Part shown: positions 22,093-29,311 of the stretch, in pieces | Position numbering within the stretch: the stretch's first letter is position 1 | Layout: every line of letters begins with the position of its first letter | Assembly: GCF_014117325.1 (NCBI RefSeq) | Contig: NZ_CP059732.1 | Location: 6,585,001-6,649,000, forward strand | DNA from: Spirosoma foliorum | GTDB taxonomy: Bacteria > Bacteroidota > Bacteroidia > Cytophagales > Spirosomataceae | DNA length: 64,000 nt | Direction: 5' to 3' | The notes under the pieces: model-generated | Databases searched by the model: none | The model's input: only the letters and a program-made list of their open reading frames with translations | What the model was told of the DNA's origin: nothing | Translations under genes and position numbers: made by a program

Positions 22093-23144
22093 TAGGACTT
22101 ACGCAAAGGCAACTGAAGGATTCGCCAACTCTTGACGAAGGTAAGCATCTAATAAGCCTTGTTTGAGTTGGTAAACCGTTTTCTTAGTCTGATAAGCCAA
22201 CTGTTTAAAACGTAACCAAGTCAGAGCCGCTAAGCCAATGTGATTGCGTTGACTACGAGCTAATCGACATTGACAACATTCCAGACCCGTGATCTGCTTA
22301 TCTTCTCGATGAAACTGCTCAATTGTCCAACGAATACCACTTTTTTCTTCAGCGGCACTCGTCTCATTTTGAGCTAAATCGTTGGTGACGATATAGTCCG
22401 TCCGGTGGGTAGACACCAGTACGCGGAACAGTTTAAGATAGGTGTTTTGAGGCATCTTGTGTACTTTAACCAGCTTACCCTGCTGCACCTGTTGAGCTGA
22501 CCAGCTCAGATAGCTGACAGGTTGATACGATTCTTTGCCACCTGAATCATCGACCTTACGGTTGCTCTTGATAGGACAGTAAAACAGTTTTTCATTGGTA
22601 ATGAGCCACTTGAAGAGGTCGGTCACAGCATACCAACTGTCCATTAAGACGATTCGATAACTGATCTGGCGGGGTGCTAGTTGGTTAAGCATGTCCAACA
22701 CATGATCCAACTTGCTTTTTCCATCCTCATCGGGATTAAAAATACGGTAGTCAATGAGCCAGAACTGATTAATTTTAGGATTGAAGTAGACACAATTAAC
22801 CACACCGATGCCTTTGATGATTCCATGAGCATTTCCACTGTATTGCCGACGAACCAGTTCAATTTTATGACTATGTTCTTTATTGAGCACGGTATCATCA
22901 AAGAGGATATAGCCATCGGTATCCAGTTGAATTTGGTGGCGGACATGTTGCCAGACCTGGCGAGGTGCCACTCGGCTAGCTTTGAGAAAGTACTGCACAT
23001 TGTCATGGGTGATCCCTTCCAGGTGATCAGCCAAGTAGGTAGCCGTATAGTTGATCTGGCTACTCAGTAGAAACTGTCCGTAAAGTTGTGCGGTGACCTT
23101 CAAGCTATTTTTTATTTCAATTTACCACTTTTGCGTAAGTCCTA
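22093..23144 (-). mobile_element. IS701-like insertion sequence, 1052 bp
   Basis: Ends are a perfect 15-bp inverted repeat: TAGGACTTACGCAAA at 22093-22107 and its complement at 23130-23144. A 5-bp direct repeat TTTAT lies at 22088-22092 and 23145-23149. One transposase gene fills it. The ends resemble repeats common in IS701-like elements, but the family name is a judgement from the protein. Confidence 0.85.
22099..23103 (-). CDS. DDE transposase, IS701-like
   Basis: The 334-residue protein begins at TTG 23103. The DDE core shows LFDDTVLNKEHSHKIELV with the first Asp, IVLMDSWYAVTDLF with the second, and IRWTIEQFHREDKQ with Glu. The stretch QYSGNAHGIIKGIG is typical of IS701-type transposases. 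Length is normal. The gene is antisense to the interrupted sterol desaturase gene, and its start (23103) overlaps the GTG of the chimeric frame at 23093. Confidence 0.85.
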   Translation of the reverse strand: MKVTAQLYGQFLLSSQINYTATYLADHLEGITHDNVQYFLKASRVAPRQVWQHVRHQIQLDTDGYILFDDTVLNKEHSHKIELVRRQYSGNAHGIIKGIGVVNCVYFNPKINQFWLIDYRIFNPDEDGKSKLDHVLDMLNQLAPRQISYRIVLMDSWYAVTDLFKWLITNEKLFYCPIKSNRKVDDSGGKESYQPVSYLSWSAQQVQQGKLVKVHKMPQNTYLKLFRVLVSTHRTDYIVTNDLAQNETSAAEEKSGIRWTIEQFHREDKQITGLECCQCRLARSQRNHIGLAALTWLRFKQLAYQTKKTVYQLKQGLLDAYLRQELANPSVAFA

Positions 23145-24221: not shown

Positions 24222-24797
24222 CTACGGCAATACGGTATTCCCAATTCGACTAACTTTGTCGCCAGTATAAAAAAAACTAGTATCGCCAATTCGGGTAACT
24301 TTATCTTCAGTATAGAAAATACTAATATCCCCAATCCGGATGACTTTATCCCCAGTATAAAAAATACTAGTATTCCCAATTCGAATGACTTTATCTCCAG
24401 TATAGAAAATACTAGTATTACCGATTCGGGTAACTTTATCCCCAGTATAGGAGATAGTAACATTTTCAATTTTAGTAGCTTTCAGAGTAGATATATTTCC
24501 AGAAATCTGTTTGTCATTTAATAGCGTGATTAATGAAGCAATATAATTCTGACTATTATTTAATTGTATTTTCGATGACATAACCGTAAAACTTCCATCG
24601 AAATTTAGTTTAAACATAACTTCTCCTTCTTCAATTGTTTGATAAGTTTGCAAGGAATATGTTCCGTCTTTATAGACGATAAAATGGCCAATTTTAAATA
24701 TAAAAACCTTGTTCCCATTAATAGAATAATTATCTATTTGTGCATTGACAGGTAACCAGGTAGAAATTAACAAAATGGCTAGAATTAGGCTTTTCAT
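24222..24797 (-). CDS. Exported tandem-repeat protein of unknown function
   Basis: From ATG 24797 the protein has 191 residues with a signal peptide ending LPVNAQ. The last 80 residues are five nearly identical 15-residue repeats of the type IGNTSIFYTGDKVIR. The DNA repeat unit is 45 bp (24241-24465). Repeats of I-G-x-x-x-I-x-Y-x-x-G/D-x-V-x-R form occur in some Bacteroidota surface proteins and look like a beta solenoid. The gene ends just past the repeats and is the last of a minus-strand cluster with 24837-29311. Confidence 0.7.
   Translation of the reverse strand: MKSLILAILLISTWLPVNAQIDNYSINGNKVFIFKIGHFIVYKDGTYSLQTYQTIEEGEVMFKLNFDGSFTVMSSKIQLNNSQNYIASLITLLNDKQISGNISTLKATKIENVTISYTGDKVTRIGNTSIFYTGDKVIRIGNTSIFYTGDKVIRIGDISIFYTEDKVTRIGDTSFFYTGDKVSRIGNTVLP
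24241..24465. repeat. Five tandem 45-bp repeats
   Basis: Five 45-bp units begin with CCAATTCG or a close variant and contain CCAGTATA. They differ by a few bases each. They encode 15-residue units in the minus-strand gene, and because 45 is a multiple of three, other frames also stay open on both strands. Confidence 0.85.
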
Positions 24798-24836
24798 AGT
24801 GAATAAGGGGCTAGTTTTGTCAATGAGTAAGATCAC

Positions 24837-26210: not shown

Positions 26211-27497
26211 TCAAGCTTTGGCAGTTGGGGGTAATGTGGGCATGAGTTGGCAGATCCAGGCGATAATTTGCATACCCCTTTTAGTCAGCGACCGTTTAGT
26301 TTCTGCTTGGCTAATCGCTCTATCTTCTAGGGAAAAAGGGCCTAGTGATAGTGCGGTTTCTACGGTTTGCGTCTCCTCATCTGCCCAGTCACTAATCGTT
26401 AAGTCTTTAGCCACAATGAAAGCAATGGGGAGAGCTGGAAAAATCCCCGTATTGGCGGCCATCCCATTTGAGAACACACCCTCTTGGTAACCAGGCATAT
26501 ACCAATTTTTCAAAAACAGAAAGGAGTCATCTAACCAGGGGCGATTTACCTGAACCAGACAATAGTCGAATGAAATTTTCAGGGAGTCGGCACGTTGAAC
26601 ATACGTTGCGGTTGTGCTCAGTAAGAGTGATTGTTTTACCCGTTGCATGTCCATCATACTTGATTTGATCTGAAATATTTTATCAGGCAATGGATGAACA
26701 ACCGTTGAATCAATCCGACCATCAACATGAAATGCCGTACTTGTCATGGCCGACATGGTAGCCCTTCTATTTACTGCCAATAGGGCAGTCTTTAAGAGTT
26801 GTGGCTTCACTAACTGATCAATACCTACATGTGCCTGTTCTTCGTTAATTGACTGCAATTGCAACTGTAGCACTGCTTTGTCTAGTAACCGTGGCTGGCT
26901 AACTAATTGAACAAAATCTGGAGGCAGTACCTGCCACATCCACCGACGGATTTCCGGATTGAGTTTGACCAACGAAGTTGATCTGGTCGATTCATTACTT
27001 TGTATCTGGTTACTATATGTAAATGTTGACCAATTGCCTTGCGTAGTAGCGTCATACCAATCGGTGGGGGTTGCATAGGCTGGGTGGAACGATGTGGGAT
27101 TGTTTTCTTTGAGAGAACCAATAGGTGTATTTTCAAATGTTCTGAGAGCCTGGCTTTTGACGTGGTTAAAGAAGGAAATATCAGGTTCCTCTGAAGTCAA
27201 TGAAAAGGCACCGTTTAGAATAGTACTGTACTGACCTTCAACCGTTTTTCCTGTTCGGTTATAGGTATTAGCATCAACCGTTGGGATATTATTTACTAAG
27301 CCCGAGAGGGTTTCAACGGCCATTGCTGGCGAATAAACACCTCCTGTTTTATCTATTTTGAAATCTGACGGGCTAACGGATGTACCGATTGGTTCAAACG
27401 ATAAAAAAACATCCTTCTGAGTAGCAGGATTTTGCTGATGAAACTTATCTAAAAAATAGTCATAGACATGTTGCATTAGATCATCTATTTCATTCAT
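26211..27497 (-). CDS. Protein of unknown family, paralogue of 27607-29311
   Basis: From ATG 27497 it has 428 residues, no signal peptide, acidic N-terminus. It shares two blocks with the frameshifted neighbour: a PTDWYDA type motif (about 150) and a C-terminal RPWLDDSFLFLKNWY then ALPIAFIVAKDLTISDW and MQIIAWICQLMPTLPP. I recognise no family. A longer frame to 27554 overlaps the inverted repeat at 27527. The two paralogues and 24837-26180 lie within 5 kb on one strand, so they may form one system. Confidence 0.65.
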   Translation of the reverse strand: MNEIDDLMQHVYDYFLDKFHQQNPATQKDVFLSFEPIGTSVSPSDFKIDKTGGVYSPAMAVETLSGLVNNIPTVDANTYNRTGKTVEGQYSTILNGAFSLTSEEPDISFFNHVKSQALRTFENTPIGSLKENNPTSFHPAYATPTDWYDATTQGNWSTFTYSNQIQSNESTRSTSLVKLNPEIRRWMWQVLPPDFVQLVSQPRLLDKAVLQLQLQSINEEQAHVGIDQLVKPQLLKTALLAVNRRATMSAMTSTAFHVDGRIDSTVVHPLPDKIFQIKSSMMDMQRVKQSLLLSTTATYVQRADSLKISFDYCLVQVNRPWLDDSFLFLKNWYMPGYQEGVFSNGMAANTGIFPALPIAFIVAKDLTISDWADEETQTVETALSLGPFSLEDRAISQAETKRSLTKRGMQIIAWICQLMPTLPPTAKA

Positions 27498-27526
27498 AGT
27501 AGTAGGGATAGAATAAGGTGAATAAT

Positions 27527-27562
27527 CTTTTCCGGTGCGCACCTGATTTTGCACCGGAAAAG
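27527..27562. repeat. 12-bp inverted repeat before paralogue gene
   Basis: CTTTTCCGGTGC at 27527-27538 pairs perfectly with GCACCGGAAAAG at 27551-27562 around a 12-base loop. It lies between the two paralogue genes. It could end transcription of 27607-29311 or serve as an operator for 26211-27497. No T run is attached. Confidence 0.65.
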
Positions 27563-27606
27563 GTTAATTTTTATGTAAGGATTACCGCACTAGATCTTGA
27601 GAAAAC

Positions 27607-29311
27607 CTATGTAGTTAATCCAGGATCGGACTCGGGTGGAGATGCGGGCAAAATATCGCTTAACCAACCAATAATCTGGGTTCCTTTGATTTCGAGTGTT
27701 GAGCCGTCAAAATGCCACCCGTACTCGGAATTGGAGTTACTCGTTGTGCTTCCAGCATAATCGGCAATAGCATCACTACTATCATGAGAGCCGTGCCCAC
27801 CAAACGAGATGAACCCTAAGGATATACCACCTCCAGCACTGACGTGCTGATTGGTTGAGTTACTGGTATCCTGACTTTGTCGGTACATATTGTTGAGTGT
27901 TTGTCCGTCCTGCCCCCAGGTACTGGTTTTAATTTTTACATTTTTAATAACCAGAAATTGCATGGGCACCATTGGCAACAAAGGTGCTTCTTTTCTTATC
28001 TGCGTATCGATCAGGCCGTCACTAATGGCTTTAGCCGGATTATTGACCAAGTACCATTTTTGCATGTAGAACAGATCACCCATAAACCACGGGCGTTCAA
28101 TCGTGCACAATCCGTATGTAATTTCGATACTCAGATCAGTAGCATCATTGTGAAATTGATACTGCTCCGATTCACTTCCCCCCGTAGTAATCACTCGCTC
28201 AGTTGAGCTGGTACCACCACTACCACCAGCAAACCCAAAACCGAATGAAATGGCCCCTCCGCCACCCGATGACGACGAATGAGATTCGAAATGCTGTTTG
28301 TATGTACTGTTTTGATGAGCAGCCGATTGGCTATTATATTCATTGCTACTAATAGTCAATGTTTGCCACCCCTCGCTATCATCATCTGAATCATACCAGT
28401 GTGTAGGATTAACGTAAGAATACGGAATGGGCGATGGTACCCCGGCCAAGCCTAAATTGTAAGCATCGAATAGTTTGCGGGATTTCGTGGTCATCCTGGC
28501 TTGCATATTGACTCCAACTGACTCAATTGTGTCAAGAGCCTGCTCCACTCGTTCGGCACCTTCCGTTTTCCAGGCATCGTAGGCATCATCTACTTTGCGC
28601 TGGTAGACAACGGATGCCATTGGCCAGCTATCGGCTCTGTTTACATCGTTCAAATAAGAATTTTGTGCATCGCTGTAGTCTACTTTAGCCTGAGCATAAT
28701 CACTAGCATTTCTCACGTAATTGCGATAGAGCTTAGATTTACCAGTGATATCTCCATCTTCATCTAATTCATAAAGTAGTTTCCGCGCATCATCAATGCG
28801 TTTCTTCACCTCCGGTGCCATAGATGGAGCAGGCTCTGGCTGAATACCATTAATGATGTTTTCGTAAGCAAAACTGATGTGTTGCGTGCCTGGATACTCC
28901 AGATAAGAATCATCATTAGTGACCATCAGTCTCTTGTCTACTAATTGGGCCGTCCGGTAAGCGGCTGCTATTGCTCGCCGAAATTTTGGATCGGCAGGCT
29001 TGTTTGCGGAAGAAGTCCCCCCGTTCGATGATGGAGTAGTCGTAGTTCCATCCGCAGTCGGAGTGGGAGAAGTAGACAGAGGCCCCCCCCCCGTTAGCCG
29101 CTTTTACATCGTCCTGCAACGAAGAGCCGCCCATTGGTGACCATGCATTAGCATAGTCTTTGGGATCAACCATTTCTCCCAATACTAATTGTGAATAAAC
29201 AAAGCCTGTTGTCAGCGCTTTACCGTCAGTCCGAACAGGACGACTGGATTTAATTCTGTCAATTAATTGACTGAAAACAGTCAAAATCGCTAATCCTGGT
29301 TCATTTGCCAT
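27607..29311 (-). pseudogene. Frameshifted paralogue of 26211-27497, broken at a run of ten C
   Basis: Two open frames make one protein: 28916-29311 (start ATG 29311) and 27607-28926. At 29083-29092 there is a run of ten C (ten G on the coding strand). Deleting one base joins the frames through a Pro/Ser/Thr linker to a PKFRRAIAAAYRTAQ helix and on into MVTNDDSYLEYPG, with no stop, giving 567 residues. The C-terminal block matches the 26211-27497 paralogue (IERPWFMGDLFYMQKWY, LPMVPMQFLVIKN). A Gly/Ser-rich stretch lies near the middle. The break may be real, a phase-variable slippage, or a sequencing error. Confidence 0.8.

Follow-up and report, generated by a model that had tools for sequence, protein, structure and literature searches.

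A ten-cytosine run splitting an uncharacterised Spirosoma foliorum gene probably reflects a homopolymer over-call affecting the whole assembly

Phase variation by simple-sequence slippage at poly-G or poly-C tracts is well established in Campylobacter, Neisseria and Helicobacter, and the locus described here resembles these systems in carrying a run of about ten G/C within a reading frame. It differs from them in that the run is missing from the six relatives examined at the DNA level, and in that reading frames in unrelated genes of the same assembly, those of conserved enzymes included, are shifted in one direction.

A second likeness is technical in nature. Assemblies built from long reads only retain homopolymer-length errors that cause false frameshifts (PMC8812927, PMC12007338), and the homopolymer indels described in these reports break conserved genes assembly-wide, as is observed here. 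In the part of PMC12007338 that deals with nanopore assemblies, however, most homopolymer errors are deletions, with insertions tied to no particular homopolymer, whereas the changes in the present assembly are insertion-like and fall at G/C runs of at least 8. The locus also resembles the singleton frameshifts of the GeneTack study, in a passage of which the authors expect sequencing errors, not genuine indels, behind protein-validated singletons (PMC3711429). In both cases a frame change is backed by full-length proteins and no relatives are known to share it, but here a genome-wide test of the direction of frame changes gives an independent ground for calling an error.

The split gene and its family

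The window, by which we mean the whole 64-kb stretch of DNA that was analysed, contains a single run of 7 or more C or G. In the deposited sequence this run is exactly ten bases long and reads as G10 on the coding strand. A previous sequence-only reading had pointed to this C10 run and to the two ORFs that meet near it, and all three were found at the positions it gave; the 567-residue protein that it obtained by joining the ORFs agrees with the coordinates as a matter of arithmetic. The features of the locus are as follows.

29083-29092, no strand assigned: C10 run, the frame-change site, probably one base too long as written (profile pieces bracket the change)
28916-29311, minus strand: N-terminal piece, 131 aa as written (ORF)
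27607-28926, minus strand: C-terminal piece, 439 aa as written (ORF)
28927-29082, minus strand: stretch 5' of the ATG of the C-terminal piece, open in the C-terminal frame (frame and profile)
29017-29022, no strand assigned: C6 run in the same linker, outside the frame-change bracket (profile)
26211-27554, minus strand: downstream partner gene, open, a distant paralogue (ORF and hhalign)

On the coding strand the gene, including its G10 run, spans 27607-29311 (-). The run corresponds to residues 74-77 of the 131-aa ORF, in which only the first ~75 residues are family sequence and the remainder is out of frame. From stop to stop, the frame of the C-terminal piece extends over 498 codons (27610-29103), with the run at residues 4-7 of this frame, and the stretch between the run and the ATG holds a Pro/Ser/Thr-rich linker and a conserved helix-like block ahead of the Met. 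The apparent start ATG of the second ORF is itself a Met that the family conserves at an internal position. We located the frame change by profile match and not by codon usage, which gave little separation within the linker (-2.4 for the N-terminal frame and -3.1 for the C-terminal frame across 29082-29024). A family profile (A1) built from 34 relatives matched the genome in two parts, profile positions 2-74 at 29093-29311 and positions 73-553 at 27610-29052 in a different frame. As the two parts abut in the profile but lie in different frames, they belong to one gene, with the switch of frame somewhere in 29053-29092. We also considered the C6 run as the site of the break, and ruled it out since it lies beyond this bracket.

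A search with the 439-aa piece matched 136 proteins, 120 of which were listed, its own record included, and identities to the listed relatives reached 58%. Among the 119 listed relatives, 119 are matched by the C-terminal piece and 114 by the N-terminal piece, whose matches stop at or near the C10 run. Most listed relatives (102/119) are 540-610 aa long, and the C-terminal piece is 57% identical to one of them, P0003, over its whole length. These matches, together with the two-part profile match, bear out the proposal of the sequence-only reading that one gene is split in a linker. They show that the split gene is one member of an uncharacterised family of ~560 aa, divided at the C10 run in its linker. 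Some listed relatives (e.g., P0052 and P0101) are without the N-terminal part. Orphan N-terminal pieces, considered as possible signs of other switches, account for 16 matches besides the own record; 5 of these lie on contigs of <2 kb and 6 lack contig data. P0126, P0130, P0132 and P0137 appear to be frame-shifted in the linker, as judged by eye from the protein only.

The family is rare in the vicinity of this strain: counting the own genome in each case, the C-terminal piece was matched in 4 of 222 genomes of the taxonomic family and the family profile in 2 of the 395 genomes sampled from the phylum. In the second phylum match (G432, locus L198), one TAA is reported inside the matched stretch, the open frame comprises 477 codons and G/C runs of 6 or more are absent from the gene. 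In five other relatives (L003, L004, L005, L007 and L176), G/C runs reach a maximum of 4-6 bases across the whole gene, and none of 6 lies in the linker. A linker G/C run of 6 or more is thus absent from 6/6 relatives whose DNA was examined. The relatives with DNA have one open frame and no comparable run and, within those six, the long run is therefore not a feature of the family. Regarding function, no informative match to the family was obtained in Pfam, PHROGs, PADLOC or the PDB, and Fil_haemagg_2 matched weakly in 5/34 family members. One relative sits on a plasmid, and no relative was found among phages and viral contigs.

Frame changes at G/C runs across the assembly and the genus

The assembly (G000; 8,853,064 bases in one contig) contains 52 G/C runs of exactly 8 bases and 24 of 9 or more, including 14 of 10 or more, a rate at which about one in 10 windows of this size is expected to carry a G/C run of ten or more. 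We went through each of the 76 G/C runs of at least 8, comparing the longest open frame upstream of each run with that downstream and recording whether the two were in the same frame or shifted. When 90 open codons were required on both sides of the run, 44 readings qualified. In 29 of these the frame was shifted as if the run held one extra base, in 3 it was shifted in the opposite direction and in 12 it was retained; the split gene, with 91 open codons before the run and 491 after it, is among the 29. The corresponding counts of one-extra, opposite and in-frame readings were 37, 4 and 12 at 60 codons, 24, 2 and 12 at 100 codons (n = 38; p = 1e-5 for direction), where the split gene falls out, and 12, 1 and 8 at 200 codons. 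Both strands were read for each run, so that antisense open frames occasionally enter the counts, as at the C17 run of L051, and the run of L074 was counted twice, once per strand. This C17 run (L051 4321-4337; G000:C1:3902320-3902336), which exceeds all other G/C runs of the assembly by a wide margin, is placed at or just ahead of the start of a reading frame and, where reads exist, would be a better candidate than the C10 run for real variation in length.

Shorter G/C runs and A/T runs in G000 behaved differently: at 90 codons, breaks occurred at 32/44 G/C runs of at least 8, compared with 4/51 G/C runs of 6-7 and 1/55 A/T runs of at least 7, and at 100 codons 45/49 G/C runs of 6-7 and 48/49 A/T runs of at least 7 were in frame. 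The excess of frame breaks is confined to long G/C runs and goes nearly always in one direction, and in G000 a gene with such a run is usually broken there.

Four genomes of the genus (G182, G184, G185 and G186) were used as controls, each represented by 20 regions around the first-listed of its G8 runs (46, 32, 28 and 42 listed in total, respectively). The regions covered 20, 24, 24 and 21 runs of 8 or more, of which only 3 in all are at least 9 bases long. At 90 codons, readings were in frame in 17/17, 15/15, 17/22 and 12/13 cases, respectively. Pooled over the 67 control readings, 61 were unchanged, none was shifted as if by one extra base and 6 were shifted in the opposite direction, one of them in G186, for which a threshold of 60 codons gave one one-extra, one opposite and 15 in-frame readings. 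At 100 codons, 26/38 readings were broken in G000 and 0/25 in G184 and G186 taken together (p = 8e-9, a comparison that excludes G182 and G185). Counts of G7 and G8 runs stand at 94:52 in G000 and range from 3.7:1 to 8.9:1 in nine further genomes of the genus, which looks as if many runs of seven had been recorded as eight. The other five opposite shifts belong to G185 (L110-L129), where 5/22 readings of G8 runs in genes are displaced as if a base were missing and none as if one were extra, a bias that is probably due to under-calling in that assembly.

From these frame statistics we infer that the split very probably arose as an over-call in the assembly and that the gene is intact in the living bacterium. 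The most economical mechanism is a consensus bias by which G/C runs of about seven or more bases would be lengthened by one. Most gene-borne G/C runs written as 8 or more would then carry an extra base, the C10 run among them, and the cause would be base calling or consensus rather than real DNA. Such an artefact is favoured because the breaks run in one direction across G000 while no one-extra shift was seen in the 67 control readings; the 12/44 G000 readings that stay in frame indicate that the over-call is not universal.

To see which genes are affected, both pieces of ten split genes were scanned against Pfam. A single domain continues nearly without interruption across the break in the genes for FMN_dh (3-285 and 284-348), Peptidase_M19 (2-228 and 220-318), Trehalase (2-124 and 123-507) and DUF7654 (1-53 and 45-142), the FMN_dh gene standing outside the 44 readings with just 65 codons open beyond its run. 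The same holds for Abhydrolase_1 (3-80 and 79-244), the second piece of which is below the cut-off. A small gap separates the pieces in PSCyt2 (1-86 and 97-207) and TerC (1-83 and 89-177), the TerC gene being shifted in the opposite direction, and a larger one those of AMP-binding (4-104 and 157-383). The two pieces hit different domains in a GH43 gene and in a CheB/CheR-kinase gene, the latter again with a shift in the opposite direction. For ten additional genes a single piece each was compared with NCBIfam; six matched, all below the curated cut-offs and including NuoJ-like, RarA-like and amidase-like proteins, and four were without a match. Two NuoJ-like genes are present, L173 (G000:C1:6983312-6983801) and L174 (6727612-6728130), of which one is cut by a G8 run and the other is open. 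NuoJ was therefore dropped as an example of a broken single-copy core gene, and no lethality argument can be drawn from it.

Competing explanations for the ten-base run

The sequence-only reading had left three possibilities side by side, a slippage switch, a mutation and a sequencing error; of these the error is now strongly favoured, the switch is not supported and a mutation at the site itself is improbable. In the case of a mutation, the strain would truly have ten C and the gene would be a recent pseudogene, independent of the assembly-wide pattern. A ten-base run is a plausible slippage site, and the rarity of the family nearby suggests that the gene may be dispensable. Nevertheless, the gene carries no further disabling change, both of its frames are open, the C-terminal piece has kept its identity to P0003 along the whole length and the direction of the shift matches the bias of the assembly. 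A very recent pseudogene would show the same open frames, yet taken with the direction of the shift we regard this explanation as unlikely. A mutator background is also disfavoured, as mutS and mutL, the two repair genes covered, are open and score above their cut-offs. If replication slippage at the C10 run instead toggled the gene on and off, ten G/C within a reading frame and a break in a flexible linker would be as expected. The six relatives without a linker G/C run of 6 or more, the one-way breaks at most long G/C runs of G000, where a population of switches should give both directions, and the splitting of conserved enzymes in the same manner make phase variation very unlikely.

The frame change might also be put to use, with transcriptional slippage, programmed frameshifting or coupled re-initiation yielding the full-length protein or two proteins. 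The ATG (28926-28924) falls in the region of the first ORF's stop (28918-28916), a layout reminiscent of translational coupling, but this putative start is the conserved internal Met and the run is not conserved in the relatives with DNA. Rescue by transcriptional slippage in particular is unlikely in view of PMC5574713, in the relevant part of which G/C runs are held not to be prone to slippage and the insertions seen at homopolymer runs in E. coli and Buchnera transcriptomes are all in A/T runs. Altogether, a functional frame change is highly improbable. The runs as written could, finally, all be real, dozens of G/C runs in conserved genes having gained one base that is tolerated or decoded by slippage. 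Frame statistics alone do not distinguish such a history from a bias in base calling, although we give it hardly any credence.

Besides the 12/44 readings that stay in frame, further points count against the over-call. Real slippage is expected to be likelier at ten bases than at eight, and runs of at least 9 number just 3 in the controls. The one-extra bias at G/C runs also differs from the error pattern given in the nanopore part of PMC12007338. A literature search for errors at G/C runs that named a polishing program returned nothing. With the over-call as the preferred explanation, a false candidate switch is removed, and the direction of frame changes at homopolymers, taken across an assembly and compared with genomes of the same genus, offers a cheap control that separates assembly bias from biology. 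Until reads have been checked, the roughly thirty apparent gene breaks in G000 should not be taken for pseudogenes or contingency loci, and the same caution applies to some of the opposite-kind breaks in G185.

The downstream partner and its surroundings

The downstream partner is open throughout and homologous to the split gene across ~130 C-terminal columns (hhalign probability 99.4), in agreement with the intact paralogue that the sequence-only reading had described. The two form an uncharacterised gene pair at 26211-29311 (-), of ~560 aa and 450-500 aa, with homologous C-terminal parts. Neighbouring ORFs forming a pair of this kind were also found in the cyanobacterium Leptolyngbya sp. FACHB-8 and on a plasmid of the rhizobial Neorhizobium petrolearium, and a similar ORF pair is present in three genomes of the same family (Bacteroidota), two of them within the genus. 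The partner ORFs elsewhere are 19-40% identical by alignment to the partner in the window and are candidate homologues.

In G213, an ORF for a papain-like cysteine protease (Peptidase_C70, E 4e-19; L004 522-1109 (+)) adjoins the pair, and in G153 LGFP repeats do so (L006 1869-2414). Further along the window, a 204-aa ORF at 24222-24836 (-) ends in a C-terminal run of near-identical repeats of 14-15 residues, as seen by eye, and the 5' end of a DDE-type transposase ORF at 22099-23103 (-) overlaps a fatty acid hydroxylase ORF where the latter starts, at 23093.
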